Source: Desulfobacteraceae bacterium
GTDB taxonomy: Bacteria; Desulfobacterota; Desulfobacteria; Desulfobacterales; JAABTS01
Assembly (NCBI GenBank): GCA_011389735.1
Contig: JAABTS010000029.1
Span: 1 to 43,384 of the forward strand
Direction: 5' to 3'
Length of the DNA: 43,384 nucleotides
The position numbers were made by a program, and so were the translations under genes. Shown one piece after another: positions 1 through 37,864 of the stretch; within the stretch, counting starts at the first letter, position 1, and each line of letters begins with the position of its first letter. The notes under the pieces were generated by a model that was not told the origin of the DNA, did no database searches, and was given only the letters and a program-made list of their open reading frames with translations.

Positions 1-3000
1 ATAAGGTGGTAATACACGTTTTCAAGCTGCTTATAAGGCCGTACATGGAACTTGTTGTAATAATAGGCGTTCATCTCATTGAGCAGGGTTTCAAACCCCG
101 GAAACAGGGATGTGGAAATTACTCCGGTGCGGTCCCGCATCGTCTCGGGGAGCGCCAGTCCGTCCTGGATTTTATCTCCCCCACGGGTTTCCCGAGTCCA
201 GGGAATAAGCGGAATGTGCGCGTCTTTCAAGGCCTCATACCCTGCGGCGATGGCCAGGCCGTATGTGATGTCATAGTCCCGGTCCACTCCGTATTCACTT
301 TTTAGATTGAAATATCCGAGCTTTCCAGCCAGATGAATGACATCGTCCGTACTTTCGATATCCACCAGCCGGGCGTTTCCATCCGATTCCTTGAACAGGC
401 GGGTGATTTGCATATCGGCCATGCTTTCTTTTTCTTCGAGAGATAGTGGTTCGATAAAACTATATCCTTTCAAAATCTTATCGAAATTGTCAGGATCGAA
501 CACCTTGTTCCCTGATCCGGGCAGGCCGATGGACACCCCCGCAATACGAATATCGCCAGTGTAAAAATCGAATTTTTCAAGCGCTTTGATCCGTTTTTCC
601 TGCTGATGCTTTAAATATTCGCGATACACGGCCGCCTTGACCGACACTTCGTTTTCTTTGATAAATCGTTTATAATCTTCCGAATCCCCCGGATCGGGGG
701 CGATATTCGGGATCGAAGCCGAGTCCGGGGCGGACGTTTCTTTCATTTTTTTCCGATACGAGTCGAACCGATCGATCTCCGGCGGCGGCGTATTCTCGAT
801 AAAACCGTCTTGCCGAAGATGCGCCGTCAGTTCGGACAGCGTTTCTTGTTCACCTTTTTTGGGGTCGGCCGACGGCGCGGCAAAAAAATCGCCGATATCC
901 GTCTGCTTGAGCAGATTGCACAAAATCCGTCCAGGGCCGATTTCGACGAATCGATCCGCGCCCGCCGATCTGACATGCCTCACCGCGGATGTAAATTCCA
1001 CCGGGGATACGATCTGCCGGGCCAGCAAATCCTTAACGGCCTGAGTCTCGACAGGGTAGGGAAGGCCGGTGGCGTTTGAATAAATCACGCCGTTCCCGTT
1101 CCCTTTGAATTTTACTGTTTGAAGATGTTCGGCCATCATCCGGGATGCGCCGCCCATAAGCGGGGAGTGAAACGCCGCCGATAACGGAAGACGTTTGAAC
1201 ATGATTCCCCAGCCGGTCAGACACTCGCAAAATGCCTCAATCCCGGATATGGTTCCCGACACCGCTGTTTGCCGATCACTGTTTTTATTGGCGATGTATA
1301 CCCCCTTGATTCCGGATGTGGAAATACAATTTTCCACAGTCGCCGTATTTTGGAATACTGCAATGATCCGGCCGGGATTCTCGTCGCCGGCCTGTTTCAT
1401 AAAATCCGAACGATGGATCACCAGTTTCATGGCCTGTTCGAAATCGAGCATCCCGGAACAATAGAGCGCCGAGTATTCGCCGATACTATGGCCTATGAAA
1501 GCGTCCGGACGGAATCCAGGGCGGTTCAGGTGATTCCATATCGCGGCGGTGGACACAAAGACAGCGGGTTGTGTGTTTTCGGTCCGATTCAGCGTATCCC
1601 CTCCCTTGTCCATGATTTCCATCAGCGAACGGCCGCGAAGTTGTTCGAATATCCGTTCGCCTTTATCCATGATATTACGGATATCGGGATTCGACTGGTA
1701 GAGCGAACGCATCATGCCTGGATATTGCGCGCCCTGTCCGGATAACAGAGCTACAACTCCGGTTTTTAATTGAACCGGTTCGGAAACGGGAGCTGATTCT
1801 CGAACAGCGGTCGCATCGACGACCTGACGAGCCTCGTGGCGGTTTTCCAGATGCGGCGGCGGTGAGCCGATCATAAAATGGCCGTGATCGCCGCCGAAGC
1901 CGAAAACATTGGACGCAAACAGAACCGGCCCGGATTCGGCCAGCAGTTCCCGATTGGGTCTGAGGGTTTGGGTGTTCCGAACGAGACTCGTTTTTTCATG
2001 ATAATTGAAACTCGGGAAAATAACCCGGTTTCGGGTCATCAAGATCAGTTTGGCCATTACCACGGCGGGATTGGCGCCCTTGAAATACCCGAATTCCGGT
2101 TTGATATTTCCGAAAAACACAGGCGCTTTGAAATGCTGTTCCACCGCCTGTTGTTCAATCCGGTCAAGCAGGTAGGATGAAAAGCCGAACACATCCAGAT
2201 AGCGCACAGTGCGCGCCGGTTTACCGGATCGCCGGCAGGCTTTAGAAAATACGTTCATGAAGGTTTGTTCAGACGGATAGTACATATTCCCGGAGGGGCT
2301 AGATGCAAAGGCCGCGCCGTCATAGAAAGCCAGCGTCTGCAATCCGTGTTTTCGGGCGTTTTTCAAGGTGGTCATGACAAATAGAGCCGCGCCTTCGCTC
2401 AGGACAAACCCGTCGGCCTCCCGGTCAAAATATCGGCAATCGCCGCCGGACAGAAGTCCGAGTCGTTTGAAGGCCATGAGGGAGCTGGGATGAAAATTAC
2501 AGTCCACGCCGCCGGTGATTACAAAATCGTGCCTGCCGGCAATGATTTCTTTCGCGGCGAGATCCACGGCGACCGCCGCCGATGCGCAGGCAGAATCCAC
2601 TATAAAATTGGCGCCGTTCAAATCATATCGATTGGCGATCCTGGCGGCTACGATATTGGACAACAGCCCCGGAACCGTATCTTCGGTATATTTTTCGTAG
2701 CGCGCTTTGAGGACGGCGGTCAGTTTCTCGATGACGGCGTCCCGTTCATCGGGAGCGAGATCCGGCGTTTCCGCGAGTGTTTTGACGATAACCGGAATTC
2801 GGGTGCGAAGCACGTTTTCCGCATGTTTTTCTCCGGATAAGGTTCCGATAATAACGGCGGTTCGTTCCCTCGATTCCCGTCTATCCAAAATACCGGTTTG
2901 TTCGAACGCCTGTCCCGCCGCATCCAGAGCAAAACACTGGGACCGGTCAAGGCGTTTGGCTGTCAGCGGAGGTATGCGGTGTCGCTTATAGTCAAATTGA

Positions 3001-6000
3001 TAATCTTCCACAATGCCGGCTTTGACTATCGGAATATGATACAGCGGATCGGATTCTTCACAATAGGCCGCATTGTGAAAACGGGTTTCAGGTATTTGTG
3101 TTAACACATTCTTTCCGCTGCTCAATGCATCGAGGAAAGAATCGATATTATCGGCGCCCGGCAGATTTACCCCAAGGCCGCAAAAGACGATCCGGTCATC
3201 GTTGTAATCATGATCCATATCGGCGAACACTCGCCTTTCGGTGGGTTTGGCCGACGAGATGTACTCTTCGACGACCAGATGGTAATTGATGCCTCCGAAT
3301 CCGTAAGAACTCACTCCTGCCCGCCTGGGCCCCCGGTTTTTCGTGTTCCAGGGCGCAGCGTCTTGAATGATATAAAAAGGGTTTTGATCCGGATCGAATT
3401 TCGGGTTGAGCGTTCTGAATCCGCCGTTGGGCGGCAGGGTTTTATGTTTAATCGCCAGCAGCGCCTTGATCAATCCGGCCATGCCCGCTCCGCCCAACAG
3501 ATGGCCGATTTGAGATTTGACGGAACTGACGCCTATAGGATTTCCGCTGTGATACGCTTTGCACAGCGCCTCCATTTCGGCGGCGTCTCCCACCGGCGTG
3601 CCCGTACCGTGAGCCTCGACATAACCGATATCCGAAAAATCACATTGACCGGCGAATCGTTCGAAGCAACGTTTGATCGCCTTAATCTGGCCGCCGGTAT
3701 TGGGCGCCGCGATCGCTTTTCCCTTTCCGTCCGAAGCAACGCCGATTCCCTTTATAACACCGTAAATCCGATCTCCGTCCCGAACAGCGTCCGACAAGCG
3801 TTTCAAAATTACGACGCCCGCCCCTTCGCCGGGAACGAACCCGTCAGCGCGTTCGTCAAAGGGAAATGATCCGGACGCCGACAACGCGCCCATCTTGGAA
3901 AAGCCGATAAAGGTTTCCGGAGACAGATTTGTGTTGACCCCGCCCGTGATCACCAGATCGTGAGATCCGGAAAGAAGTTCCCGGCAGGCGCAATCCACGG
4001 CGGTGAACGAGGATGCGCATGCCGCGTCTACAACATAATGAACGCCTTTGGCGCCGAATTGAGATGCGATTCCAGCCGCGTCGATATTGAGAACCGCGCT
4101 GTCCGGCCGCTCATTTTGATGTCCGCCGGCCATGGCTGTTTTTATCCGTGACAGAATCGATGCTTTTTGGTCAGGATCAAGGGCGGTGAATTCATCAATT
4201 TGTTCCAGGTGATAACGAACTTCAGGATAATAATACTTTAAATGCAGGTCGTTGCCGAGTTCATTGCCTAAACATGACGCTACCACCACGGCGGTTGACC
4301 ATTCCGGGAAATGTTCCGCGATCCGGTTTTGGCTATCCATGTATCCTGAGTCCTTGAGGGCCTGGGCCGAGGCTTCGAGCAGCATTTTCCGGCTTCGGGA
4401 AATCACTTTCGCATCGGTTTCGGAAAAGCCGAACCGTTGATGATCGAAGACAAAATCATCGACAACGCCCGCGATTTTGGTGTAGCTTTTGTCTTCGGAG
4501 CTTCGGTCCGTATCGAAATAAAGATCCGTATCGAACCGGTCTCCGGATATTTCCGCGACGCCGTTGGTTTTCGCCAGGATAGTTTCCCAAAAAGCTTTCG
4601 GGTTGGGCGATTTCGGATATACACAGCCCATACCGATTACCGCAATATCGTCTTGAATCGCGTTACTCCCGCTGGTGTTGAGTTCCAGAGCGTTTAACGT
4701 CTGCGCCAGCGCTTCCTTGCCCGAAAAATAACGATCATGGAGATCTTTGATGCAAAACGGTTTTGAATCAAAGCAGAGCGCGTCGCCGGACATAAAATTG
4801 CCTCGTCGGAGCTGTTCCTGTTCATTGTATTGAATAAAGTCAATCCGCCCGTTTTCACAAGGCCCTTTCCCAAAATCCGGCGCAAATGCTTTGGCCGCGA
4901 TCAGAAGCGAACACATATTGTCTTTCTCGAACGCTTCTTTACGGTGTTTCAGGTTGACGCCCTCCCGTATCCAGGAGTGTTCCTTCTCGGCCATTCCTTG
5001 TGAAAAGGGCGTTTCCACCGTGCGCGCCGGAAGCCCGACTGTATTGCCGATCAACATGGTGCGGTCATGTTCGAACAGCACTGTTTGATAAAATTTGGCC
5101 AGAGCCCCGGTTTCAACAATTTCCCGGGTAAATAAATAGGACGTGCCGATTTGTAAGCCGATTTGGAAACCTTGTGCAGCGAGGATCGACGTCATTCCGG
5201 AAATAAAGCGGGATGCGGTTGCGGTTCCGATACCCCCGGCAAAGATCATGGCGGCTTCCGACCCGCAAACATTCGGCCGGTCAAGAAAATAAGCCGCCGC
5301 TGTTTCCCACAATACGAGGCTGGTGAGATTTCCCACATGCCCTCCGGCCTCGGTCCCCTCGAAAATGAACCGTCTGCATCCGCCTTTGACGGCGTTATCG
5401 AGCATGGCCGACGACGGCGTGTGCAAATAACTCTTGATCCCTTCGGCTTCGAGTTCCGCGATCCGGGCCGGATTCCCGGCTGCAAAAAGAGAGAATGGAG
5501 GTTTATGGCGTTTCATGAGTTCCATATGCTTTGACAGGGACGGATTGAAGGATTCGATACCGATCAAACCCACCCCGTAGCGCTCTACTTTTTCCGACGT
5601 GGATTCGATCATGGTCTCCGCAAGATTGGCGGGCAGGCTTCCCATCGCCAGAAACGGCAGGCCGCCGTTGTCATAGACCTGATACGCAAAGTCCGCCGTA
5701 TCGCTCACATTGGCCATAGGGCCCTGAATGATTGGAAATTCCGTTCCATGAGATTGTGCAAGCGGAGAACCCGCCTTCATCGGATCATGTCCGTCCACCG
5801 CCATTATGGAATCGGCGATTCCTTGAAAAAAATCATGTATTACGTCCTTGACCGATGTTGACCGGCTGACGAACGATCGTGCGAAAACTGCGTCCATGCC
5901 CAGGTAAAAAAGGCTCTGAACGGGACGGACCTCTGTGTTGTCCAAAAAAACAATATTGGTTTTGATTTCATTTAGAAGTGAATCCAAATCGCCGTTCCCG

Positions 6001-6743
6001 GCCTGAACAATACTTTCTTTTTCAAGCAATTTCTTTACGATTTTTGCGGCCGGTTTTGAAAAAAAACGGTAACGGTCATCCAGGGCCTCGCCGACCACGG
6101 CGGTGTCCTTTTCTTCAAGGGTTTGAATCAGTTTTTTGAATGAATCCGCCGTCGGGGCCTCGTCGCAAAGATAGAGCTGATTGTCCAAAATTACCCCCGA
6201 CGCACCTGCGGCGAACATTCCCGGAGCCGTATAGCGTCCTACGCCGCCGTGAATAAACACCGGATATTCGGTGTTTTCCAGATACCACTGCATCAACACG
6301 AACGAGGTGTTTCGCGACACACGGCCCGGCGCTTCTATCCCTTTGACGATCAAACCGTCAAACACGACAGATTCCAGATACTGCTCGATCCGGATATGCC
6401 TTGCTTCCACAAAAACAGTCCCATGGAAATCCAAAAAATCGTATCCTTCAAGATCCGAAGGTTTCCCATAGGCGATCACCAGAGCGTTCAGGTTCGGAAA
6501 GCGGGAATCGATCAGATATTCCCGCAACGGCTCATCGCCGGCGAAACATCTCACCCCGAACAGAACTTCCGCTTTTGAAAGCCGGTCTATGATATCAACA
6601 GCGGTTTCATGATCAAAAAATTCGGTATCCAACACCGGCAGCGCCCCTGCCTGATGAATTGCATTAAAATACGGCCGGTCAAACACTCCGGTCGGATTGT
6701 AAACGATAAGCGGCAGTTTTGAATATAAAAGCCTTGTGAACAT
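1..6743 (-). CDS. Giant multidomain polyketide/fatty-acid synthase (partial, C-terminus beyond left edge)
   Basis: Open without a stop from ATG at 6743 (AAGGAG just upstream) to the window edge, about 2247 residues. Domains in order: an NMO/2-nitropropane-dioxygenase-like half (about 1-230, FIHGGVGRY near 165); a second, fuller NMO/PfaD-type enoyl-reductase-like barrel (about 330-690, EGTEAGGHVG near 465, AGGIGTA near 503); KS1 (about 695-1150) with Cys909 in DAACASS, His1045 in EAHGTGT and His1081 in KSQIGH; KS2 (about 1180-1600) with Cys1386 in SACASA but Phe1519 and Tyr1553 where the two histidines belong; acyltransferase (about 1660-1930) with GHSIGE Ser1753 and AFHS His1859, a pattern usual for malonyl-specific AT; linker; the start of a third KS-like domain from about 2060 (GVSIGLPGSG). 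No ACP is seen before the edge. Cytoplasmic; it probably builds a special lipid or polyketide. Domain content recalls Pfa-type PUFA synthases, but the product is unknown. Confidence 0.9.
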   Translation of the reverse strand, partial: MFTRLLYSKLPLIVYNPTGVFDRPYFNAIHQAGALPVLDTEFFDHETAVDIIDRLSKAEVLFGVRCFAGDEPLREYLIDSRFPNLNALVIAYGKPSDLEGYDFLDFHGTVFVEARHIRIEQYLESVVFDGLIVKGIEAPGRVSRNTSFVLMQWYLENTEYPVFIHGGVGRYTAPGMFAAGASGVILDNQLYLCDEAPTADSFKKLIQTLEEKDTAVVGEALDDRYRFFSKPAAKIVKKLLEKESIVQAGNGDLDSLLNEIKTNIVFLDNTEVRPVQSLFYLGMDAVFARSFVSRSTSVKDVIHDFFQGIADSIMAVDGHDPMKAGSPLAQSHGTEFPIIQGPMANVSDTADFAYQVYDNGGLPFLAMGSLPANLAETMIESTSEKVERYGVGLIGIESFNPSLSKHMELMKRHKPPFSLFAAGNPARIAELEAEGIKSYLHTPSSAMLDNAVKGGCRRFIFEGTEAGGHVGNLTSLVLWETAAAYFLDRPNVCGSEAAMIFAGGIGTATASRFISGMTSILAAQGFQIGLQIGTSYLFTREIVETGALAKFYQTVLFEHDRTMLIGNTVGLPARTVETPFSQGMAEKEHSWIREGVNLKHRKEAFEKDNMCSLLIAAKAFAPDFGKGPCENGRIDFIQYNEQEQLRRGNFMSGDALCFDSKPFCIKDLHDRYFSGKEALAQTLNALELNTSGSNAIQDDIAVIGMGCVYPKSPNPKAFWETILAKTNGVAEISGDRFDTDLYFDTDRSSEDKSYTKIAGVVDDFVFDHQRFGFSETDAKVISRSRKMLLEASAQALKDSGYMDSQNRIAEHFPEWSTAVVVASCLGNELGNDLHLKYYYPEVRYHLEQIDEFTALDPDQKASILSRIKTAMAGGHQNERPDSAVLNIDAAGIASQFGAKGVHYVVDAACASSFTAVDCACRELLSGSHDLVITGGVNTNLSPETFIGFSKMGALSASGSFPFDERADGFVPGEGAGVVILKRLSDAVRDGDRIYGVIKGIGVASDGKGKAIAAPNTGGQIKAIKRCFERFAGQCDFSDIGYVEAHGTGTPVGDAAEMEALCKAYHSGNPIGVSSVKSQIGHLLGGAGMAGLIKALLAIKHKTLPPNGGFRTLNPKFDPDQNPFYIIQDAAPWNTKNRGPRRAGVSSYGFGGINYHLVVEEYISSAKPTERRVFADMDHDYNDDRIVFCGLGVNLPGADNIDSFLDALSSGKNVLTQIPETRFHNAAYCEESDPLYHIPIVKAGIVEDYQFDYKRHRIPPLTAKRLDRSQCFALDAAGQAFEQTGILDRRESRERTAVIIGTLSGEKHAENVLRTRIPVIVKTLAETPDLAPDERDAVIEKLTAVLKARYEKYTEDTVPGLLSNIVAARIANRYDLNGANFIVDSACASAAVAVDLAAKEIIAGRHDFVITGGVDCNFHPSSLMAFKRLGLLSGGDCRYFDREADGFVLSEGAALFVMTTLKNARKHGLQTLAFYDGAAFASSPSGNMYYPSEQTFMNVFSKACRRSGKPARTVRYLDVFGFSSYLLDRIEQQAVEQHFKAPVFFGNIKPEFGYFKGANPAVVMAKLILMTRNRVIFPSFNYHEKTSLVRNTQTLRPNRELLAESGPVLFASNVFGFGGDHGHFMIGSPPPHLENRHEARQVVDATAVRESAPVSEPVQLKTGVVALLSGQGAQYPGMMRSLYQSNPDIRNIMDKGERIFEQLRGRSLMEIMDKGGDTLNRTENTQPAVFVSTAAIWNHLNRPGFRPDAFIGHSIGEYSALYCSGMLDFEQAMKLVIHRSDFMKQAGDENPGRIIAVFQNTATVENCISTSGIKGVYIANKNSDRQTAVSGTISGIEAFCECLTGWGIMFKRLPLSAAFHSPLMGGASRMMAEHLQTVKFKGNGNGVIYSNATGLPYPVETQAVKDLLARQIVSPVEFTSAVRHVRSAGADRFVEIGPGRILCNLLKQTDIGDFFAAPSADPKKGEQETLSELTAHLRQDGFIENTPPPEIDRFDSYRKKMKETSAPDSASIPNIAPDPGDSEDYKRFIKENEVSVKAAVYREYLKHQQEKRIKALEKFDFYTGDIRIAGVSIGLPGSGNKVFDPDNFDKILKGYSFIEPLSLEEKESMADMQITRLFKESDGNARLVDIESTDDVIHLAGKLGYFNLKSEYGVDRDYDITYGLAIAAGYEALKDAHIPLIPWTRETRGGDKIQDGLALPETMRDRTGVISTSLFPGFETLLNEMNAYYYNKFHVRPYKQLENVYYHL

Positions 6744-7108
6744 AATGTGAATCTCCTTAGTAAAAAAAATGAGTCTGGTTTCAATTTCGGCCTCTCATGG
6801 CCGTACGCCGGTTCAAGAAATGGTTAAAAGCTAAAGGCATTTTTCATGCCGAAAAGCGTAAAAAATTGCTAACCAACAGAATATAAAAGGAAAATTATCT
6901 GTTCGGCCCGAGTTGAAAGAAAATTCAAACAAAAAAAATCCGCATTTTTTGAAGAATATGTCCGCATAATTTGCAGAACCATTCAGGAAGACAAATATCC
7001 CAAATAAAACCATAAAACCAATGAACAGATTTTTATTGAACAATGCGCGAATTTTTGATATCTTCCCATTTTATGTATCATCTTCATTTATGTATCGTCA
7101 TATATTAC
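6744..7108. other. AT-rich intergenic region between divergent genes
   Basis: Lies between the start of the synthase (leftward) and the zinc-ribbon gene (rightward). It is AT-rich with short A and T runs and must contain the leftward synthase promoter, but I cannot assign -35/-10 boxes with confidence. Short reading frames here lack ribosome sites and family similarity. The right part of the gap holds the hexanucleotide hairpin and half of a family A repeat, listed separately. Confidence 0.5.
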
Positions 7109-7668: not shown

Positions 7669-7728
7669 GTTGAATGTGCGTATCCTGTTTAGCATTTAGC
7701 ATTGAACATAATTAAGGAGGAGCGCGCC

Positions 7729-9852
7729 ATGGCGGAACATCCCAAAAAGCAAGAATGGATTGATCTTGCGACGAGTCAAATGAGAGGCAAGCCACTTGAA
7801 GGTTTGAATTGGAACACGCCTGAGGGGATTCAGGTAAAGCCGTTGTACACCAGGGAGGATATTGAAGGTCTTGAGAGTGAGAACACGCTTCCGGGGCTGC
7901 CTCCGTATGTTCGAGGGCCTATGGCGACGATGTACGCCGGCCGTCCCTGGACGATTCGTCAATATGCGGGTTTTTCGACGGCTCGGGAGTCCAACGCTTT
8001 TTACCGGCGGAATCTGGCGGCGGGTCAGAAGGGACTATCGGTGGCTTTTGATCTGGCGACGCATCGTGGGTATGATTCCGATCATCCTCGGGTTTCCGGT
8101 GATGTAGGCAAGGCGGGCGTGGCGATAGACAGTGTGGAGGACATGAAGATATTGTTTGATCAGATACCGCTTGATAAGATGTCTGTGTCCATGACGATGA
8201 ACGGTGCGGTGCTTCCGATTTTGGCGGGTTATATCGTGGCCGCGGAGGAGCAGGGCGTCAAGCAGGATCAATTGGCGGGTACGATTCAAAACGACATACT
8301 CAAAGAGTATTTGACTCGGAACACCTATATATATCCGCCGGAGCCTTCGATGCGGATTGTATCGGACATTATCGGTTATTGTTCAGGTAACATGCCCAAA
8401 TTCAACACGATCAGCATTTCCGGGTATCACATGATGGAGGCCGGCGCCGATTCGGTTCTTCAGACGGCGTTTACGCTGGCCGACGGCGTGGAGTATGTGC
8501 GTGCGGCGTTGAAAGCGGGGCTTGATATCGACGTTTTTGCTCCCCGGCTGTCGTTCTTTTTCGGGATCGGCATGAATTTTTTCATGGAAATCGCTATGTT
8601 GCGGGCGGCCCGTTTTCTTTGGCACAGGCTTATGAGCCGGTTTGAACCGAAAAACCCCAAGTCGTCGATGCTCAGAACTCATTGCCAGACATCGGGGTGG
8701 AGTCTAACGGCGCAAGATCCTTACAACAACATTATCCGGACGACGCTCGAATGTCTGGCGGCGGCTTTAGGCGGAACCCAGTCGCTCCACACCAATTCGT
8801 TTGACGAGGCCATTGGCCTGCCGACTGATTTTTCGGCCGGAATCGCCCGGAACACGCAGCTTATCGTTCAGGAAGAATCTCAGGTTTGCCGCACGGTCGA
8901 TCCGCTTGGCGGATCGTATTACATTGAATATCTGACCGACTCCATTGTCAGGGAGGCGTCGAAGATTATCGACGAGATCGAAGAGATGGGCGGCATGGCC
9001 AAAGCTATCGGCGCCGGAACGCCTAAAATGCGGATTGAAGAATCGGCGGCCAGGAAGCAGGCTCGGATTGATCAAGGGAAGGACACCATAGTGGGTGTCA
9101 ACAAGTACCGTATTGACGATGATCCGGATTTGGAAATCCTGGAGGTGTCCGCGGCGATACGCGACGAGCAGGTATCGCGGTTGAACGAAATTCGGGCGGG
9201 CCGTAATTCGGCCGCTGTCGATGAAGCTCTTAGGGCCGTCACGAGCGCGGCGGAATCCAAAGGCAACCTGCTGGAGGTCTGTATCGACGCGGTGCGGGCC
9301 AGGGCCACGGTGGGCGAGGTGTCCGACGCGCTGGAAAAAGTGTTCGGCCGGTATGTGGCGACCACGCAATGTATTTCCGGCGTATACGCTGCTGAATACG
9401 CGGACGACGACGTATTCAAATCGATTCGGAAACGGACGGACGATTTCAACGAGAAACATGGGCGCAGGCCAAGAATACTGGTGGTCAAAATGGGGCAGGA
9501 CGGTCATGACCGGGGCGTGAAAGTGATCGCCACGGCCTATGCGGATCTCGGGTTTGACGTTGATATCAGTCCCATGTTTCAGACGCCGGAGGAGGCCGCT
9601 CGCATGGCGGTGGAAAACGACGTTCACGTGGTCGGCGTGTCGACTCTGGCGGCGGGTCATAAAACGCTGGCGCCTCAGTTGATCGAGGCCTTGAAAAAAG
9701 AAGGCGGCGGGGATATCAAAGTGGTTGTCGGCGGCGTTATCCCTCCCAAGGACTATGAATTCCTATATGAATGCGGAGCGTCGGGGATTTTCGGGCCGGG
9801 TACGGCGGTGGCCGAATCCGCGAATAAAGTGTTGAACATAATTGAAGCCTGA
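7729..9852 (+). CDS. scpA: Methylmalonyl-CoA mutase, full-length (catalytic plus B12 domain)
   Basis: A 707-residue adenosylcobalamin enzyme interconverting methylmalonyl-CoA and succinyl-CoA. N-terminal TIM barrel: [14 protein letters not shown] with the substrate-contacting Tyr79, YPPEPSMRI, and [10 protein letters not shown] with catalytic His234. C-terminal Rossmann-like B12 domain: base-off motif DGHDRG at 591-596 with His593 as lower cobalt ligand, then [12 protein letters not shown] and GGVIPPKDY. The length matches single-chain mutases. The start at 7729 is chosen because TAAGGAGG ends 8 bases upstream; an in-frame start at 7702 has no good ribosome site. In sulfate reducers this enzyme serves propionate or succinate metabolism. 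The TetR-type palindrome upstream suggests acyl-CoA-responsive control. Heptamer repeats flank the gene on both sides. Related acyl-CoA mutases exist, so specificity for methylmalonyl-CoA is likely, not proved. Confidence 0.96.
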
Positions 9853-9998: not shown

Positions 9999-10691
9999 TC
10001 AACCCGCCCCCTTTTCAATAACGCGTTGATATCGTTTTTTCGCCCATTTCATAATCACAAACAAAAGCACAAAAATTACCGCCATCACGGCGAAGATCGG
10101 CAGGTTCAATTCCGCTGAGGCCTCGCCCAGAAGGACGAACGGAATTCCCATGATCCCCTGGATTAACCATCCGAAAAAAAAATAATGCCGAAAGGGAACA
10201 CCGCTTATGGGCAGCAAATAATTTTTCATGCTATAGGACAGCCCTGGAATGACCATGAACAGGAAGCAGAATTCCATGTTCCGGTCTTCCGGGATGCTGA
10301 AAATCTTATAGTCTTTTTCTTTTTTTAAAGCATATTGTTTGATCCGGTCGCCGATAAACGAGCGGGTCAGCCAGAATGAAAACAGCAAGTGCAGCGGCAT
10401 GATCGAAAACATCGCCAGGATTCCGATAACGACGCCGAAACGCATGCCCATGAGAACCAAAAGCGCGGTTATAGGAAATCCCACGAGCGGCAACATGATA
10501 AAAGCGCCGATAATCACCATAAAATGAATATCTTCATTTTGCAGATAATCTATAAACCGCTGGATTTCCGGTTCAAACAAGATATAGAGCCCCACGGCCA
10601 GGCACAGCACGAGAACAACGATGAGCGTCGCCTGTAATATTTTCCACTTCACACTCCTTGTCAACTTGATGTCTTTCAGAGCTTTAATCAA
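9999..10691 (-). CDS. TVP38/TMEM64 (VTT/DedA-like) membrane protein
   Basis: A 230-residue integral membrane protein with about five or six hydrophobic segments. These include ILQATLIVVLVLCLAVGLYIL near the N-terminus, a VTT core with the LPLVGFPIT re-entrant-loop-like stretch and conserved MVIPGLSYSMKNYLLPISG, and a final hydrophobic helix before a basic tail. VTT/TVP38 proteins are lipid-scramblase or transport-related inner-membrane proteins. The start is a TTG overlapping the stop of the upstream EEP gene by 8 bases, so translation is coupled. Last gene of a four-gene operon (GT4, phosphatase, EEP, VTT). VTT genes often sit next to EEP genes, supporting a shared membrane-lipid role. Confidence 0.88.
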   Translation of the reverse strand: MIKALKDIKLTRSVKWKILQATLIVVLVLCLAVGLYILFEPEIQRFIDYLQNEDIHFMVIIGAFIMLPLVGFPITALLVLMGMRFGVVIGILAMFSIMPLHLLFSFWLTRSFIGDRIKQYALKKEKDYKIFSIPEDRNMEFCFLFMVIPGLSYSMKNYLLPISGVPFRHYFFFGWLIQGIMGIPFVLLGEASAELNLPIFAVMAVIFVLLFVIMKWAKKRYQRVIEKGAG

Positions 10692-11466
10692 AATTCATCG
10701 CCAATTCGCCGCACACCGGCAAATGATCCGACGTTCGCCTGATGTGATAGCCGGAGGGTATATCAATACAAATCGGAAAAAAATGATCCGAAACAAAAAT
10801 ATGATCCAGCCGCAGAATCGGCGACCATGAGATAAAAGTCGCCTTCGGCCGTTTTTTCGGTTCAGCGAGTATTTGCACGTCTTTTAGATACGATGTGATT
10901 TTTCGATAAACGGGCGATCCGGGGCCGCAATTGAAATCGCCGCACAACACGACGGCCTCCCGCTTTTTTAGGGCGTCGCTCAATATCGGATCCAAAAACA
11001 GAGCTTCAGCCTGTACCTGGCGATCTTTCCGGTGTAACCCGAAGTGCGTGTTGACCACCTTGACGGGTCCGCCGGGCGTATTCACCGTCACCGCCATGGC
11101 CCCTCGCATCTCTTTCGGCCTTTTCGATCTCAGAGCCGGCAGAAGCACGCATTGAAAATCCTGCATGGGATACCGGCTCAAGACCGCAAGCCCATACTGT
11201 TCCATTTCGAATTCGACCACAGGGAAAAAATGATAGGTCATGCCGAGTCCCTCGGCCAGATATTCGGCCTGATTCAAAAATTGCGTTCGATGTTTGCCGA
11301 CATCGACTTCCTGAAGAGCGACGATATCCGGGGTCAATCGAGAAATCGATTCCAGAGTCGATTCAGGGTCGATTCGGCGAACGATATTGACGCAACTATG
11401 GATATTGTATGTCATGACCTTGAGCGTAAAACACCCCGCGGTGAATTTATTTTTCCGTCGTCCCAT
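10684..11466 (-). CDS. Endonuclease/exonuclease/phosphatase (EEP) family hydrolase
   Basis: A 260-residue protein with EEP-fold motifs in order: LKVMTYNIHSC near the start (metal-site Asn), DIVALQEVD (catalytic Glu), VVNTHFGLH, VVLCGDFNCGP (Asp/Asn pair), and SDHLPVCGEL at the C-terminus (catalytic Asp-His). All core residues are present, so it should be an active Mg-dependent phosphodiesterase or phosphatase. In this family substrates range from DNA to phospholipids and inositol phosphates. Because it sits between a phosphatase-superfamily gene and a VTT gene, a lipid or head-group substrate is more likely than DNA, but this is inference. No signal peptide is evident. It overlaps the upstream gene by 20 bases and the downstream gene by 8 bases. 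Confidence 0.88.
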   Translation of the reverse strand: MGRRKNKFTAGCFTLKVMTYNIHSCVNIVRRIDPESTLESISRLTPDIVALQEVDVGKHRTQFLNQAEYLAEGLGMTYHFFPVVEFEMEQYGLAVLSRYPMQDFQCVLLPALRSKRPKEMRGAMAVTVNTPGGPVKVVNTHFGLHRKDRQVQAEALFLDPILSDALKKREAVVLCGDFNCGPGSPVYRKITSYLKDVQILAEPKKRPKATFISWSPILRLDHIFVSDHFFPICIDIPSGYHIRRTSDHLPVCGELAMNFD

Positions 11467-13063
11467 CCTGCCTGCTTAAATATTGCAATACAATTTCTCT
11501 TAAATCAATGGGCCTTAAATGCGATCTCCTGTCCTTGATCTCATCCGGCAGAAGCACAAAGGCTCTGGTTTCTTCCTTTCCGATTCCTCCGTGAGCCCCG
11601 TTTTCGATACTGAAGGTCAGCGGAGTGCGAACAGGATCCCATCCGGAAACAATGACGTCTCCTGCATTGGGATGCTCGCATACGTTCGATAGATCCTCAA
11701 CCACTTGGTCGCCAAAGGGATGGTCTTTTCCCAGAATCCTGTCCTTATCGTCGAACAAATCCCATCGGCCCGAAGCGTTTATAGCGGTTATCCGGCCGTC
11801 CTTTTTGAAAATCACCAAAGGGAATCCCGCTTTTTTTACGAGGTTTTCCGCAAAGACGGAACGATACTCCTCGGAACAGGCTTCAAGAATATAAACATGG
11901 CCGAGCGGCCCCATTGTAGTAATTTCGATATGCTCCGGCGATACACGGGAGGTATCCTTGTCGTGCGAATTGAAACCCGAAAAAAGCTTGTTCTTGGAGC
12001 GGTAATATAAATAATCGGACGACCTGTCCGGTTCTTTGCGGCCGGCGGCTCCGCTTACAGTTTCACTGTCCGCGAACACTCTTTTGACGGCGTCTTTCGG
12101 AGATCCGTTAAAACGGTCGAAATAGCTTGCCACTGCTTCCTGCCCGTGGTCTGAAAAAAGGAAAATCGTGTAGTTCCGGTTGCAGCTCCGATCCGCGGTG
12201 CGAAATACGTCCTTGACAACATCATCCACGCCTTTGAGAGTCCAATGCGCAAATCTTGAATTCGGCCCCCTCCGGTGCGCCTGTTCGTCGTAACCGAGCA
12301 GATTGAAGCTGATTATAGGCATACCCCGGGCGATGTCCATCTTGACCCGGAAACGAACCAGTTCACGTAGAACAATACAAATGAATATCCGGGACATTAT
12401 AAACACCGCTTCCTTTCTAAAATTCCTGCCTGTGAAGATTCCCCGGAAAAAATCAGTCACGGCCAGAACGCTTTCCACTATAGAGTATGCGGCCACCCGT
12501 ATGATTTTATCGATATGAAATATCAATAGAAGCAAAATTTTAAATGGGTTCAAAGCTTTGATCATCGATTCGATGGTTAAGCCGTCGGTACAATAATACG
12601 ATACCCGGGCGCCTCCCGAAAACAAGGTGGAATATGCGCTTCCGCCTTTGAGGAGAGGAGTGTTTCCCTTTTCGATCCTACGGGCGACTTTTCGAACAGC
12701 GGCAGGCTGAAACATGGCCTTTCGCTTGCCGTCCTCCCGGTCAAAAAACTCGAAGGCCGGCACGCACGTTTTCACTCCGTAAAACAATTCGCCCATCACG
12801 GCCGGAGTTGAGGACGGGATTCCGGAATAAAACAATTTTCCGGAATATTTTCCGGACTTGATCAATTTCTGAACAAACGGAGTCCGCCCGTTCGCCATCG
12901 CTTTTTCCAACTGACGATAAGAAAGGCCGTCGATTTGAATCATGATAACGCCGTCGCCTTCCGGCCGTTCAACAACTTCCCGCAGATTCATCAAGCGAAC
13001 AAACCAGGAATTTTTGGAAAAATAGGACACCATTTCGCTCAATCGTTTTTTAATTCGATCCAT
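11447..13063 (-). CDS. Alkaline phosphatase superfamily / type I phosphodiesterase-like hydrolase
   Basis: About 538 residues. Metal-binding and nucleophile motifs of the alkaline-phosphatase superfamily are visible: VIMIQIDGLSY with Asp45, SSTPAVMGELF with nucleophile Thr86, FNLLGYDEQAHRRGP (Asp and His ligands) and FLFSDHGQE (Asp-His). A central hydrophobic insert (about 180-250, ILLLLIFHIDKI) may touch the membrane. Probably hydrolyses phosphodiester or phosphomonoester head groups; the exact substrate is unknown. The chosen ATG at 13063 has AAGGA about 11 bases upstream; a GTG at 13072 is the alternative but sits too close to that site. It overlaps the glycosyltransferase upstream and the EEP gene downstream, so the four genes form one operon. 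Confidence 0.88.
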   Translation of the reverse strand: MDRIKKRLSEMVSYFSKNSWFVRLMNLREVVERPEGDGVIMIQIDGLSYRQLEKAMANGRTPFVQKLIKSGKYSGKLFYSGIPSSTPAVMGELFYGVKTCVPAFEFFDREDGKRKAMFQPAAVRKVARRIEKGNTPLLKGGSAYSTLFSGGARVSYYCTDGLTIESMIKALNPFKILLLLIFHIDKIIRVAAYSIVESVLAVTDFFRGIFTGRNFRKEAVFIMSRIFICIVLRELVRFRVKMDIARGMPIISFNLLGYDEQAHRRGPNSRFAHWTLKGVDDVVKDVFRTADRSCNRNYTIFLFSDHGQEAVASYFDRFNGSPKDAVKRVFADSETVSGAAGRKEPDRSSDYLYYRSKNKLFSGFNSHDKDTSRVSPEHIEITTMGPLGHVYILEACSEEYRSVFAENLVKKAGFPLVIFKKDGRITAINASGRWDLFDDKDRILGKDHPFGDQVVEDLSNVCEHPNAGDVIVSGWDPVRTPLTFSIENGAHGGIGKEETRAFVLLPDEIKDRRSHLRPIDLREIVLQYLSRQDGTTEK

Positions 13064-14354
13064 TGTCACCACTGTCCTTTTCGACTGTACCGACCATTGC
13101 CCTGGCTTTTTCCGTCAGCAAATCCCATTCGGCCCGGATTCCCAACAGAAAGGACTCCCAGGGTTCCAGGGTATGGCTTTTGTGCGTTCTTTTTTCCGGC
13201 ATCTCGGCTATCGTGGTTTCGTATAGTTCATTCAGGGCTTCCGCGCATTGTTCCCGGCTGAATTTATCAGCGGTTTCACGCGCTTTCACTTCCCATCTGG
13301 CCATTTGACGGTCGTCCGCCGCCGCCGTTTTAACGGCGTCCGCAAAAATATCTTCGTCCGCATTTTCATCCAAAAGCCGACCGTTTTTACCATCAGCGAC
13401 TACTTCCCTCACTCCCGATGCATCCAGCGCAATTACCGGAACGCCTGCGGCCATGGCTTCGACAAGCACCATTCCCTGAGTTTCGGATTTGGATGAAAAC
13501 ACGAACAAATCCATTGCGTTGTATGCGCCGCTGAGTTCGTCGCCCGATTTTGCGCCGGGCGCTATCAGCCTGTCCTGTAGTCCTTCACGACTAAAAACCT
13601 CGGCGATACCGTCCTGGCTGGGGCCTTCTCCAACCACCAGAAAACAGGTTTCAGTCGTCTGCTTGACAACCCGCACGACGGCTTCGGTCAAAAAATCCAG
13701 ATTTTTTTCAGGCGCAAGTCTTCCGAGATGGCCGATCACAAAAGCGTTTTCCGGGATTTGATGGGATTTTCGAAAGGCCTTACCGTCGCCTTCCGAAAAA
13801 AAGGGAACGTCCACGCCGGTGGGAATTACGCTTATGGGCGTCTCCACGCCTCTGCTCCGGAGCAACTCCTCGATACTGGCGCTTGGAGCCGCCACACGGT
13901 CGCACAAATTCGCGTATTGTATGGATAATTCACGGGCGAACCGTTTCATGACATTGGAATCCTTGTTTATATAATGGGCATATTCCTCGTATAATGTGTG
14001 ATGCGTGAAGACAAGGGGGAGGTTTCGCCGTCCAGCCGCTCGCAACGCCGCATCGCCCAAAAGATAGGGATGGTGGCTGTGGATAATGTCCGGCCTGAAT
14101 TCATCAATTTTTTCATCGATATATACAGGCACGGGGATTCGAAGGGAAAAATCGCTGCCGTTAAATTCCTGAATCGCGGGAACCCTTACAATATCAGGTT
14201 CTTCTTCGTCGCTAACTTCATAACCCGGATAAATCGGCGCTGTGATCATCACGCTATGTCCCAATTCCCTTAAATCCTCCGCAAAAATGGCTACGGACCT
14301 CGACACGCCCCCTACATGAGGCAGATATGTGTTTGTGAACATACAAATATTCAT
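13050..14354 (-). CDS. Glycosyltransferase family 4 (GT-B)
   Basis: A 434-residue GT-B enzyme. N-terminal acceptor domain begins MNICMFTNTYLPHVGGVSRSV with the glycine-rich loop; HSHHPYLLGDAAL follows around residue 95. C-terminal donor domain has GHLGRLAPEKN near 205 and SKSETQGMVLVEAMAAGVPV near 290, the E-x7-E motif binding the nucleotide sugar. The similarity pattern resembles diacylglycerol or phosphatidylinositol glycosyltransferases of the GT4 class, consistent with the lipid-type hydrolases and VTT protein downstream, but the acceptor is not certain. First gene of the operon; GGAAGG lies upstream of the ATG. Probably peripheral at the inner membrane. Confidence 0.9.
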   Translation of the reverse strand: MNICMFTNTYLPHVGGVSRSVAIFAEDLRELGHSVMITAPIYPGYEVSDEEEPDIVRVPAIQEFNGSDFSLRIPVPVYIDEKIDEFRPDIIHSHHPYLLGDAALRAAGRRNLPLVFTHHTLYEEYAHYINKDSNVMKRFARELSIQYANLCDRVAAPSASIEELLRSRGVETPISVIPTGVDVPFFSEGDGKAFRKSHQIPENAFVIGHLGRLAPEKNLDFLTEAVVRVVKQTTETCFLVVGEGPSQDGIAEVFSREGLQDRLIAPGAKSGDELSGAYNAMDLFVFSSKSETQGMVLVEAMAAGVPVIALDASGVREVVADGKNGRLLDENADEDIFADAVKTAAADDRQMARWEVKARETADKFSREQCAEALNELYETTIAEMPEKRTHKSHTLEPWESFLLGIRAEWDLLTEKARAMVGTVEKDSGDNGSN

Positions 14355-30947: not shown

Positions 30948-31814
30948 TCAGCGTTTCGCCTCTTCTTTAAAAAATTTTAATAAAGATACGATTTCTGAAT
31001 CAATATTTTCGTTTATCCTTATATGACGGGCCAGCTCTCCGCGCCGATCATTCGAAGATGAATCGTACAGGCGCATTCGGCGAAGCATTCGTTTTCCATC
31101 AATCAAGCGGCTGAGTTTCTCCCAACGGTTTTTATCAATACTTGTTATTCCTTCCGCGAAAGCCTCTATTTTATCGATGACGCCGTTTAATTGTGCGAGT
31201 ACTGAATCTCCGAACCTTTTTTTAAGGTATTTCGTCGTTTCTTCCAGCAAATCCATCCCTGCTTTTTGGGTTCCAAACTCATTCGGGAAATGCTCGCCGT
31301 TTTCATGGCAATAGATAGCCGCTGCGGATAAAACCTTAACATTTTCGGCCTGCTGGTTGATATCGATGAGTACTTCATCAATTGGCCTCAATGAACGAAA
31401 ATATTTATCCGCAAGGACAATTTCAATTTCATTTGGGGAAAGCAGGTAGTTTTCTATCTCCCATTTTTTCAAAATCTTGATATGTTCGCCCCAGGGATTT
31501 CCGGCGGCGAGAACAGCATCATCTTTCTCCCACCAGAGATCCCACAAACGATATTGGAGTAACGCATCCCGATCTACTATTCCAAAAGCGTTAACGCCTC
31601 TCCGCCTGTCAAACCCGACCCGGCTGATTACCTGTCCACAACCGCCGCCCACTCCCGAATCTACTGATTTAAATTCCACAAACCGCCCTTCATCGAAAAA
31701 CCAACGTTCTTTAATAATTTGAACATCTTCTTCGGATTCCAGATAAACAATAGTTTTATCCAGATAGGCGCTATCGATCGTATCCAGTTTTTGATATTGT
31801 TTCAGACCAGGCAT
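30948..31814 (-). CDS. DUF4435 / TOPRIM-like protein, AriB-like
   Basis: 288 residues. N-terminal half looks TOPRIM-like: acidic strand TIVYLESEEDVQII (Glu26/Glu28/Asp30), a Gly-rich turn GGGCGQVISRVGF, then FGIVDRDALL with the DxD pair Asp81/Asp83 and later KKWEIENYLLSPNEIE, the IENYLL landmark of DUF4435. The C-terminal third is helical and charged. DUF4435 proteins act as nuclease effectors beside an ABC-type ATPase in PARIS (AriB) and related anti-phage systems. Its start follows the stop of the ATPase gene directly (TAAATG), so the two are co-translated. Last gene of the operon. Assignment to AriB itself is inference; OLD-like TOPRIM proteins are the alternative. Confidence 0.75.
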   Translation of the reverse strand: MPGLKQYQKLDTIDSAYLDKTIVYLESEEDVQIIKERWFFDEGRFVEFKSVDSGVGGGCGQVISRVGFDRRRGVNAFGIVDRDALLQYRLWDLWWEKDDAVLAAGNPWGEHIKILKKWEIENYLLSPNEIEIVLADKYFRSLRPIDEVLIDINQQAENVKVLSAAAIYCHENGEHFPNEFGTQKAGMDLLEETTKYLKKRFGDSVLAQLNGVIDKIEAFAEGITSIDKNRWEKLSRLIDGKRMLRRMRLYDSSSNDRRGELARHIRINENIDSEIVSLLKFFKEEAKR

Positions 31815-32972
31815 TTAAGAGATTCCCTGCTTAATGATTTCACCGCCCTTTCTTATTCCTTCTTCGGGTATATCAAGAGGGAAGGCGCTTAGTATCTCCC
31901 TTGAATGTGTGCTGGCGATTACTGTTAATCCAGGATAATCTCTCACCAGTCCCTTAAACAGATCTATAATGTGATGCTGCCAGTTTGGATGGAGATGAAC
32001 ATCGAGTTCGTCGATTAAAATTATTGTATTTTGCGTCATATGTGCGCCTATTCGAAGAAATAGCTGCACAAGACTTTTTTCTCCACTGCTCAGTTGATCC
32101 AGTCGATGTTTCTCTCCGCCATTATTGACAATGGCTTCAGGCGGATCTTTACGAACATCCGACAAAAATTTAACGCCTTCGTCAAACACTCTTTTGTTGA
32201 TAATTTCCCTGGCGCGTTCAAAACGACCGTCTCCAAGCCATTTTAGCCAGACCAGCAAATTATCCAGAGACTGTTCCCATTCTCGTCCCTGAGATGTAAT
32301 TTCATAGGCCGATGAATACCCCCAATCTTTAGGTCTTGAAATAGATCGATTGACGGTTCCAACACGTTCAATATCTCTATAGGCGGAAAAAAACAATACT
32401 CTTGGAAGGGTCATTGATGGTTCTTCAAAACCCGAAGGAGGCGATCCAAGCTCAGTTTCGGCTTGGACTACTCCAATGAAAGCATCTAAAAACTCATCTG
32501 ATTTTCCTCCGACCGGCTTCCAACTCTTCTCGAACCGGCTTTGCCTGTAACCCATTCGATACCAATTCTGGATACCAAAATGATTCAGCTCATTTTCCGT
32601 CCAATCCTTGATCGCCGGAGTTTCTCTATTTAGGTTGCCTGCCAGCATGGATAACAGGACACAATGCTTTGTATCTTTCCATGTCGCCTGCATACGAATA
32701 TCCCACTGAATTCCGCCATTTTTCAGGTCTATGTCCTCATGTCCGAAATGTTTGGGTTCCGGATTGAAAACAAAATGCATGAGCTTCGAAAGGACTTCCA
32801 ACAAAGTGGTTTTCCCGTAACCGTTTTTGGACAGCAACAGAAACAAATTACATGGCTGCCCGGCGGTGTCCGTGAAGTCGATCTCATAAGGGTGAGTCCG
32901 GAATGGCCCGACATTATCGATGGTAACATGGAAGGGTTCAAACCGGTCCACGATAAAGTTATTTCTTATCAT
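31815..32972 (-). CDS. ABC/SMC-type AAA ATPase, AriA-like
   Basis: 385 residues. Walker A region LLLSKNGYGKTTLLE (48-55; Ser48 replaces the first Gly), a long insertion lobe, ABC signature LSSGEKSLVQLFL, Walker B NTIILIDELDVHLHP and H-loop VIASTHSREIL: a single-chain AAA_15/AAA_21 ATPase of the kind found in OLD, RloA and PARIS AriA proteins. Its partner is probably the DUF4435 protein directly downstream. It shares ATGA with the upstream DndE-FtsK gene, so it belongs to the phosphorothioation operon. It likely acts as a sensor or scaffold that controls the downstream effector; that role is inferred from PARIS. Confidence 0.82.
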   Translation of the reverse strand: MIRNNFIVDRFEPFHVTIDNVGPFRTHPYEIDFTDTAGQPCNLFLLLSKNGYGKTTLLEVLSKLMHFVFNPEPKHFGHEDIDLKNGGIQWDIRMQATWKDTKHCVLLSMLAGNLNRETPAIKDWTENELNHFGIQNWYRMGYRQSRFEKSWKPVGGKSDEFLDAFIGVVQAETELGSPPSGFEEPSMTLPRVLFFSAYRDIERVGTVNRSISRPKDWGYSSAYEITSQGREWEQSLDNLLVWLKWLGDGRFERAREIINKRVFDEGVKFLSDVRKDPPEAIVNNGGEKHRLDQLSSGEKSLVQLFLRIGAHMTQNTIILIDELDVHLHPNWQHHIIDLFKGLVRDYPGLTVIASTHSREILSAFPLDIPEEGIRKGGEIIKQGIS

Positions 32973-34495
32973 AACGACCTCTTCTGTTGTATGGCCGATT
33001 TAACAATCGTATTTATATCATCCCTTGTTATATGTACGCCGTGGACTCTTTCAGGTTCCTTCCCGGGGTCGACTTTTACGAGCATATCACCATTCATTAA
33101 AAGCTTTTCAGCTCCTGTCTGATCCAAAATAATTTTTGATTCGGTGCTTTTTTGAACCGTCAAAGCGATCCGGGCTCGAATATTGGATCTTATTAGACCA
33201 CTGAATGTTTTCGCATCAGGCCGTTGTGTCGCCAGTACAAGATGTATCCCAACGGCGCGCGCCACCTGAGCGATACGAATAATGCGGTTTTCCACTTCAT
33301 GATTGGATTGTAAAAACAAGTCCGCCAACTCTTCAATGAATATAACTATCCTGGGAAAACTCACCTTTCCGGTTTCCAGGGCGTCAGCCAAATTAGACAC
33401 TTTAATACGTTCCAATTCATTTGTTCGTGTTTCCATTTCTTCAATCAAATGACTCAGTGTCTCATTCGCATCCCCTGCGTCCGTAATCACTTTTCCCTGA
33501 TATAAATGAGGCAAATCCCTATAGTGGCCGAACTCAACACGCTTGGTGTCGATCAGGCAAACTTGAAGTTCTTCCGGATCAAATTGCATCAACAGTGATA
33601 AAAGTAATGTATGAACACAAACGCTCTTACCGCTGCCGGTAGTTCCGCCGATTAGAAGATGAGGGGCCTGAACGAGGTTAAAATGATATGGATTCCCAAG
33701 TATATCAACACCTGGCCAGACATTTAAAGATGTAGCATCATGCTCTGTTTCGGATATCCATTTATGCAATTCCGACATGGCGACATGCTTCCAGCTTTCA
33801 CGGGGGCGGGGAATATCGAGTCCCACAAGCCGAGGCGTTGATGTGCCTCGAACCATTAAAGAGTTCTCGGGAAGCCCTAATAGAAAACAAAGCTTATCCA
33901 ATCCCTTTCGCAAAATCTCCATTTCCCGTGCGTTTTCGATATGAAGGAAATACCTTGTCATTCGAGGTCCTTTTGTCTCCTGCTCACTTTTTGCACTGAC
34001 GCCGATTTCTTTTAATGCGGAAATCAGGTTTTCACCGACATCACCCGATACGCCGGCGTCATCAGAAGAGGCGATATTTGAAAAAAATTCATGGTAGAGA
34101 TAGTCATAAAAGTCATGTCCTGACCGCCAGCTTGATTTAATCTCATGTAATCCGCGGCGTATATGCCTTTGTAAAAGACGCCGGAATTGTTCCTCGTTTT
34201 TAAAAAGATTTTCATTATGATGGACACTCAACAAAGCGCAAACTCCGTCCGTAATATCTCGACCCCCCAGATCATCGCCTTTTTGCCCTTTCCAGGTGAC
34301 TTGCTCAAGATCATAATTTTTTGAACGTCCGTGCCAGGTATCAAAGCTTTCATCCGGCATCGAAGGCATGGAAAGCGATTTTCCAAGCGCTATTCTCAAA
34401 ACTGACCATTTCGGTAAATCGGGCATTTCCAGCCCGTGTCTGCGAACGGTTTCGATAAATAATTCATCGTCTTCATCAATATAAATATCAGGCAT
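32969..34495 (-). CDS. dndE: DndE-domain / FtsK-type DNA translocase fusion protein
   Basis: 508 residues. Residues 10-130 look like a DndE domain (DELFIETVRRHGLEMPDLP, WSVLRIALGKSL, then a basic helix FRRLLQRHIRRGLHEIK). DndE normally is a stand-alone protein of about 110-120 residues that binds nicked DNA. Residues 165-235 match the FtsK beta region (GPRMTRYFL, VGLDIPRPRES). Residues 270-500 form the FtsK/SpoIIIE motor: Walker A GGTTGSGKS (283-291), Walker B IVIFIEELADL (383-393), LATQRPDAKTFSGLIRSN and GAEKLLMNGDML. No FtsK membrane domain or gamma domain. The start at 34495 overlaps the dndD stop by 8 bases (ATGCCTGA); an upstream in-frame ATG at 34537 would overlap by 50. It probably couples DNA translocation to phosphorothioate modification or surveillance. 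Confidence 0.85.
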   Translation of the reverse strand: MPDIYIDEDDELFIETVRRHGLEMPDLPKWSVLRIALGKSLSMPSMPDESFDTWHGRSKNYDLEQVTWKGQKGDDLGGRDITDGVCALLSVHHNENLFKNEEQFRRLLQRHIRRGLHEIKSSWRSGHDFYDYLYHEFFSNIASSDDAGVSGDVGENLISALKEIGVSAKSEQETKGPRMTRYFLHIENAREMEILRKGLDKLCFLLGLPENSLMVRGTSTPRLVGLDIPRPRESWKHVAMSELHKWISETEHDATSLNVWPGVDILGNPYHFNLVQAPHLLIGGTTGSGKSVCVHTLLLSLLMQFDPEELQVCLIDTKRVEFGHYRDLPHLYQGKVITDAGDANETLSHLIEEMETRTNELERIKVSNLADALETGKVSFPRIVIFIEELADLFLQSNHEVENRIIRIAQVARAVGIHLVLATQRPDAKTFSGLIRSNIRARIALTVQKSTESKIILDQTGAEKLLMNGDMLVKVDPGKEPERVHGVHITRDDINTIVKSAIQQKRSL

Positions 34496-36548: not shown

Positions 36549-37864
36549 TGATTCGCCTCTACTAAATTTTCCTGTTCAATATGCTTTTCAATAATCCTTT
36601 TGACGCCCTGTTTCAATTCTTCTCTGGCGCCTGAAACGCCATAATCTAAAGAAGGATAATATCTTGAAACTATCTCCTGCAATTCCCATACACAAGTTTC
36701 GTCTATTTCAAAACTAACCATCAATTTCCGGATCAGCTCTTTTTCATCCGGAGAAATTTCAGTATATGACATTTCTTTGATATTCCTTCCATATTTTCCG
36801 GCTATCAAGTATGCCGAATCGACCTCGTCAAAATCTTTTCGCCATATTCCTTGTATGCATGATATTTCTCCATCACTGATAAGCCGCCTGCCAACTTTTT
36901 GCTCCGTTTCGAGAAGATTTCGCAATATAACTTTTCTTGCTTCAGGAGAAAAGGGTCCGGGGCCTTCCGCTTTATTTCTGCGATATGGAAGACGGAGGGT
37001 CATATCTTCTCGAATCTTTTTGAGCCACACACGAAAGTCAAAAAGAGGCCGCATCCACTCTTCTCCGGTCTGAAGAAACCCCTTCATAGATTTATCCTCT
37101 TTTACAACAGTGCATGTCCAGCACCCGAAACGGCTTCCACCGCAAGACGGTGTCTGTAAATCAATGGCCAACAAACATTCCGAACCGCCGGCCTGCCGGT
37201 AAAGATCGAGCATATAGTCGTGGTTACCACCCCACGGCGGCGGCGTTTTAGATAAAAACCGCCATACATCATCTGTTTCCCAATCGGCAATAGGTGTAAA
37301 AACCAGAGCGTTCGGAATTTCATGATGTGGATTGAGCCCACGGCTATTTTTTATTCGGCCGTTCATCCCCTGTTTTCTAAGGCTACTTTCACTCAAGCGG
37401 GAACCGAGCAATAAAATGACGCCTCCATGTTTCGCTGTAATTTTTTCAATTTCAATCCTTGATGGTTTTACTTTCATTTTATGCGTACACCAGCGAAACC
37501 ATCTGGTTGGGGATGGATATCCTTTCCCGATCAAACAATCCCAAAAACCTTCTCCGATTGCAGGTTTAACCAATTTGATATGTATCGGCAATTCGTTATG
37601 ATTCGCATGCGCCGTTAATTTTTCAAGTCGTTCTGCGAGATATTCTTCAATATTCGGCGGTTCGACTCTTGTATCGGAAGCTATGATATATATGGGTTTT
37701 AAAGCGTCTTCGTTTTGATGTTTCAGATTTAACGCCATTTCATACACCAATTGCAGAACCAGGGTTGAATCTTTACCTCCGGAATACGCCACAACCCAGG
37801 GGCGTTTATCCGCCAAATAATTTTCAAGTAAATTTTTACGAGTTGTTGGAACGTTTTCTCTCAT
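36545..37864 (-). CDS. dndC: DNA phosphorothioation sulfurtransferase DndC
   Basis: 439 residues, PAPS-reductase-like. The PP-loop SGGKDST at 28-34 binds ATP; IASDTRVEPPNIEEYL follows. Cysteines fit the Fe-S site: Cys126 (RWCTHKMK) and the cluster Cys230, Cys241, Cys248, Cys251 (SCGGSRFGCWTCTVV). GFWDCLIGKGYPSPTRWFRW is a recognisable DndC stretch. DndC activates the DNA phosphate and accepts sulfur from a cysteine desulfurase; no dndA is present here, so a housekeeping IscS would have to supply sulfur. First gene of a five-gene operon; the ribosome site is weak and no clear promoter was found upstream. Confidence 0.95.
   Translation of the reverse strand: MRENVPTTRKNLLENYLADKRPWVVAYSGGKDSTLVLQLVYEMALNLKHQNEDALKPIYIIASDTRVEPPNIEEYLAERLEKLTAHANHNELPIHIKLVKPAIGEGFWDCLIGKGYPSPTRWFRWCTHKMKVKPSRIEIEKITAKHGGVILLLGSRLSESSLRKQGMNGRIKNSRGLNPHHEIPNALVFTPIADWETDDVWRFLSKTPPPWGGNHDYMLDLYRQAGGSECLLAIDLQTPSCGGSRFGCWTCTVVKEDKSMKGFLQTGEEWMRPLFDFRVWLKKIREDMTLRLPYRRNKAEGPGPFSPEARKVILRNLLETEQKVGRRLISDGEISCIQGIWRKDFDEVDSAYLIAGKYGRNIKEMSYTEISPDEKELIRKLMVSFEIDETCVWELQEIVSRYYPSLDYGVSGAREELKQGVKRIIEKHIEQENLVEANQ

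Follow-up and report, generated by a model that had tools for sequence, protein, structure and literature searches.

Bacterial membrane fatty acids normally come from separate type II enzymes, and single-chain systems are found mainly in fungi, animals and mycobacteria. Fungal and mycobacterial FAS I share with the bacterial synthase described here the fusion of many domains and an enoyl reductase (ER) of related barrel fold (the ER fold being the one feature compared); their domain order and domain types differ. The closest described systems are the Pfa and other secondary lipid synthases (pfaA-E, hgl; Types A–T, PMC3098273). They have in common with the present synthase an iterative ketosynthase (KS), a chain-length-factor-like KS, an acyltransferase (AT), tandem acyl carrier proteins (ACPs), a ketoreductase (KR), a flavin TIM-barrel ER and a separate phosphopantetheinyl transferase (PPTase). 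The present synthase differs in being a single chain in which the ER is FabK-like and doubled, a third KS is of the FabF type, and a dehydratase (DH) of the polyketide synthase (PKS) type stands in place of a FabA-like DH/isomerase. Shulse and Allen delimit a secondary lipid synthase by a FAS/PKS cluster that holds KS, ACP and KR together, usually with the ACPs in tandem, and all of these features were found. An unequal pair of TIM-barrel ER domains is shared with the ERb/ERc heterodimer of the thraustochytrid polyunsaturated fatty acid synthase, where the histidine is present in each of the two domains, which are PfaD-like and are located on two proteins (PMC13311796). What appears to be new is the condensation of a synthase of the secondary lipid type into a single chain, in which the FabK-type reductase is doubled and a third KS is present.

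Domain organization of the window gene

The stretch of DNA analyzed (the window) is a whole contig (C194, bases 1-43384) of a Desulfobacteraceae genome of 6.5 Mb in 477 contigs. A single intact ORF on the minus strand (6743..3), open at the contig end, encodes the N-terminal 2247 amino acids of the synthase (3..6743), and a ribosome-binding site (AAGGAG, 6753..6758, minus strand) is recognizable in the sequence 9 nt before the ATG. The ORF aligns over its whole length (1-2247) with full-length orthologs at 46-52% identity and without stops, and is thus not a chance reading frame. The Pfam matches comprise NMO (two stretches), KS (two domains, both complete) and one acyltransferase, and the domain borders were set with HMMs made from the orthologs. 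The order that results, all on the minus strand, agrees with the sequence-only reading, which had described two reductase-type barrels fused ahead of KS-KS-AT-KS and had pointed out that this arrangement departs from the pfa layout.

The first barrel (B1, aa 1-315, 5799..6743) was recognized by ortholog HMM, AlphaFold and fold match, and the second (B2, aa 320-655, 4779..5786) by ortholog HMM, TIGR03151 and fold match. B2 is a FabK-like FMN enoyl reductase: it matches the FabK model (TIGR03151, 100 bits), it matches FabK structures with a fold Z of 38 over ~310 residues, and the catalytic histidine of its EAGGH motif is kept in 87 out of 88 rows of the ortholog alignment, so that motif and fold are both those of FabK. 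It differs from FabK itself in scoring far under the model cut-off (100 versus 453 bits) and in being fused to a histidine-less barrel within a megasynthase. A partial Pfam match had hinted that B1 is a half barrel; this was ruled out by the AlphaFold model of B1-B2, which contains two full barrels (pTM 0.93; B1 pLDDT 92), B1 having eight strands and the FabK fold (Z 31 over ~300 residues when compared alone). The earlier count of two reductase-like barrels therefore holds for the fold, but in the motif alignment the EAGGH histidine of B2 has no counterpart in B1, and only one active reductase is expected. The earlier assignment of the barrels to the PfaD type was not upheld, since PfaD (TIGR02814, cut-off 449 bits) does not appear among the 25 NCBIfam families that score best with the window protein, a list that reaches down to 46 bits.

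The barrels are followed by KS1 (aa 690-1171, 3231..4676), KS2 (aa 1181-1628, 1860..3203) and a FabD-like AT with a GHSxGE motif (aa 1661-1966, 846..1763), each recognized by Pfam, ortholog HMM and motifs, and by the start of a partial, FabF-like KS3 (aa 2057-2247, 3..575) recognized by ortholog HMM. KS1 is PKS/PfaA-like and has a Cys-His-His triad, the three residues of which are kept in 81, 79 and 78 out of 84 rows; its closest structures in the PDB are ketosynthases of bacterial polyketide synthases. The PfaA model TIGR02813 scores 587 bits in the truncated window protein and 860 bits in a full-length ortholog, both below its cut-off of 1010. KS3 is closest to FabF (98 bits), with its Cys-His-His residues kept in 54, 54 and 53 out of 59 ortholog rows. 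KS2 has the KS fold and keeps the cysteine (47 out of 54 rows) but has lost both catalytic histidines. Its position is that of a chain-length factor; classical chain-length factors lack the cysteine, so any role assigned to KS2 is a guess. KS1-KS2 could form a KS/chain-length-factor pair and B1-B2 a fused pseudo-dimer. Among the remaining motifs, the AT GHSxGE is conserved in 75/75 rows, the KR tyrosine in 48/48 and the DH histidine in 46/46.

The probable second half of the gene and its relatives

A Pfam scan of the 2247 amino acids identified no ACP, as had been remarked from the sequence. This absence is an artefact of the contig end. When the genome was searched using the C-terminal half of an ortholog as query, a second contig (C202) was found that starts inside an ACP and continues with a second ACP, psiKR, KR and DH (ortholog-HMM scores of 127, 222, 346 and 368, respectively) up to a stop at 3067, followed by a PPTase gene (3165-3878); the ACP, DH and PPTase that the sequence-only reading proposed to look for are thus all present, together with a KR. 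The DH is of the PKS type (PF21089/PF14765), as it is in an ortholog. The synthase part of C202 is 39-45% identical to the same five orthologs to which the window part is 47-51% identical, whereas the C-terminus of the genome's own PfaA (C201) reaches only 23-26%, which identifies C202 as the right partner. Between the two contigs the assembly lacks about 500 amino acids, which comprise the first ACP and the greater part of KS3. The opening ACP of C202 and the next copy are 92% identical in DNA, and such near-identical copies would explain the assembly break on that side. The two contigs would accordingly carry one split gene, the window ORF most likely being roughly the front two thirds of a giant synthase.

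Full-length orthologs are single ORFs of 3,700-4,200 amino acids with the order B1-B2-KS1-KS2-AT-KS3-ACP(2-7)-psiKR-KR-DH. The long chain was identified in 11 out of 58 genomes of the order, including that of the window. Scanning GTDB genomes with a B1-B2 profile gave at least 80 loci; those listed are mostly from Desulfobacterales, and others come from some Spirochaetes, from a single Bacteroidales bin and, as more distant members, from Heimdallarchaeia. The layout recurs in dozens of Desulfobacterales genomes, and across orders and phyla. In two bins (L106, Desulfotignum; L124, Desulfobacula) the reading frame is broken into pieces, by decay or assembly error.

A sigma54-type AAA+ regulator of ~500 amino acids is encoded divergently within 1.5 kb of the synthase in 41 out of the 75 related loci whose upstream sequence extends for 1.7 kb or more, a few genomes being counted twice. 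Where present, the regulator is 53-69% identical to the copy in L054, and one shorter match was found at a locus under the length limit. No such regulator lies next to the window gene, where a methylmalonyl-CoA mutase (7702-9852, plus strand) occupies the divergent position instead; regulation in this organism may therefore differ from that in its relatives. Of the related loci, 11 have a PPTase family adjoining the synthase or close to it and 17 have a PlsC-like acyltransferase family in the neighborhood, and comparison of the related loci revealed no conserved tailoring genes beside the synthase. Elsewhere in the window, on the minus strand, a run at 9999-14354 encodes a VTT-domain protein, an endonuclease/exonuclease/phosphatase-family protein, a phosphodiesterase and a family 4 glycosyltransferase, which may belong to a lipid or glycolipid pathway. 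A second run (30948-37864) consists of defence genes of the phosphorothioation type: DndC (395 bits), DndD/PbeC (412 bits), an FtsK/SspH-like protein that matches DndE weakly, and a PtuA-like AAA ATPase. An SF1-type helicase at 40402-42945 has MkoA as its best PADLOC match (206 bits, partial).

Proposed reactions and alternative explanations

The window gene most likely encodes the first two thirds, from the N-terminus, of a type I fatty-acid/polyketide synthase that is complete in a single chain, works iteratively, reduces its product fully and belongs with the secondary lipid synthases. From the observed anatomy, motifs, conservation and PPTase linkage, the reactions, the product and its release can be proposed as follows. 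The PPTase would arm the ACPs and the AT would load malonyl. Condensation would be carried out by KS1, acting with KS2 as a KS/chain-length-factor-like unit, and by KS3. Each two-carbon unit would then be reduced in full by KR, DH and B2, the last held in a fused pseudo-dimer with the inactive B1. The sequence-only reading had suggested that the product may be a novel lipid; the domain set predicts ordinary full reduction, and the outcome would be a saturated or hydroxylated long acyl chain. Since no thioesterase was seen among the synthase domains, the chain is probably passed to an acyltransferase.

A secondary-metabolite polyketide synthase with a product other than a membrane fatty acid is an unlikely but not negligible alternative. 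It would agree with the PDB neighbors of KS1, with the PKS-type DH and with a genome that already has FabZ, FabH and FabD along with an NRPS-PKS cluster, but the full reductive set and the tandem ACPs argue against it, as do the lack of conserved adjoining tailoring genes, the nearby PlsC-like acyltransferases and the presence of the synthase in every genome of a family without FabZ. The NRPS-NRPS-PKS cluster itself is located on another contig (L076, G000:C420, 1969-18228).

A relic, whether redundant, silent or decaying, is an improbable reading of the gene in this organism. The type II genes alongside and the missing divergent regulator might suggest it, but 2247 amino acids on C194 and 1021 on C202 contain no stops or frameshifts, the active-site motifs are intact and the ribosome-binding site is clear.

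The genome does contain a standard pfa set, with PfaD (620 bits with TIGR02814) and PfaA on C95/C201 and PfaBC with a FabA-like DH on C438, which is only distantly related to the synthase. The sequence-only reading would have taken such a set next door as a sign of a rearranged copy; the set exists, but on other contigs. In a KS tree, the window's KS1 falls together with that of 55 orthologs in a clade of moderate support (0.80) that leaves out the KS of the genome's own PfaA, which groups with the PfaA of relatives, and for both reasons the objection does not apply. A rearranged or duplicated pfa cluster making polyunsaturated fatty acids, which this set, the tandem ACPs, the PfaA-like KS1 and a domain list resembling pfaD, pfaBC and pfaA joined end to end might recommend, was rejected on the KS tree and the FabK-like rather than PfaD-like reductase, and is disfavored by the PKS-type DH, the absence of a FabA-like isomerase domain and a layout common to several orders and phyla; it is largely refuted and highly improbable.

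Accessory or core fatty acid synthesis

For the single-chain fatty-acid/polyketide synthase, the physiological role may differ between lineages. The genome of the window has FabZ (C477), two FabH (C35, C470), FabD (C429) and stand-alone KS genes, and with these present the synthase is most likely accessory to the type II system in this organism. In some other lineages it is probably the main fatty-acid synthase. The family of G017 carries the synthase in 8/8 genomes and FabZ above cut-off in 0/8, including a single-contig genome (G059) inferred to be Desulfoluna limicola, and in another 46 genomes that carry the synthase or a relative, FabZ was found in 13. FabH scores above cut-off in 31 out of 36 carriers (lacking at that threshold in the four spirochaetes and one other) and stand-alone FabD in 10 out of 36; the absences of all three enzymes come from partly incomplete genomes. 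Complete loss of the type II system in the FabZ-less Desulfobacterales is ruled out, FabH remaining in most. In a survey of ketosynthases that set aside weak thiolase-like matches, the synthase is the only clear ketosynthase gene in two spirochaete bins (G101, G077), a Desulfobacula genome (G104) has no stand-alone KS, and G059 has one of 410 amino acids.

A strict link between the synthase and FabZ loss across the order was rejected, as FabZ is kept in 8 out of 11 carriers and lacking in 10 out of 47 non-carriers (58 genomes); the link is lineage-specific. Because Desulfobacterium autotrophicum HRM2 (now Desulforapulum) lacks fabA and fabZ, Shulse and Allen speculated in 2011 that Type S serves as its core synthase (PMC3098273). 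Type S may be the present synthase family, and a metagenome-assembled genome of Desulforapulum autotrophicum (L091) carries the single-chain synthase. The absences in carriers fit this speculation and extend it beyond one genome, and literature searches returned nothing else on a single-chain synthase of this kind as core synthase.

A wider proposal is tentative, its two parts together having somewhat less than an even chance: that de novo fatty-acid synthesis depends mainly or wholly on the single-chain synthase in the lineages that have lost FabZ (Desulfoluna, Desulfobacula and relatives, several Spirochaetes), and that Heimdallarchaeia owe a bacterial-style fatty-acid synthase to a relative carrying a fused PPTase. 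Where FabZ is missing, a system of one gene accompanied by its own PPTase and regulator makes it possible to test whether a synthase of "secondary lipids" has turned primary in major sulfate reducers, and a primary role would bear on sediment lipid biomarkers, on inhibitors of fatty-acid synthesis and on the making of fatty acids by Asgard archaea. A PUFA-like PKS of Heimdallarchaeota was noted earlier from KS fragments (PMC7472256). The complete chromosome of Heimdallarchaeum endolithica (CP084167.1, L153:9971-20518) encodes a relative of 3515 amino acids with an NMO barrel, KS, AT, a second KS, three ACPs, KR, DH and a fused PPTase; a profile search detected no KS2 in it, and FabZ was not found in the genome. 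A two-chain relative of the synthase is present in the Desulfobulbaceae (L137:9908-21319), where FabZ is retained.
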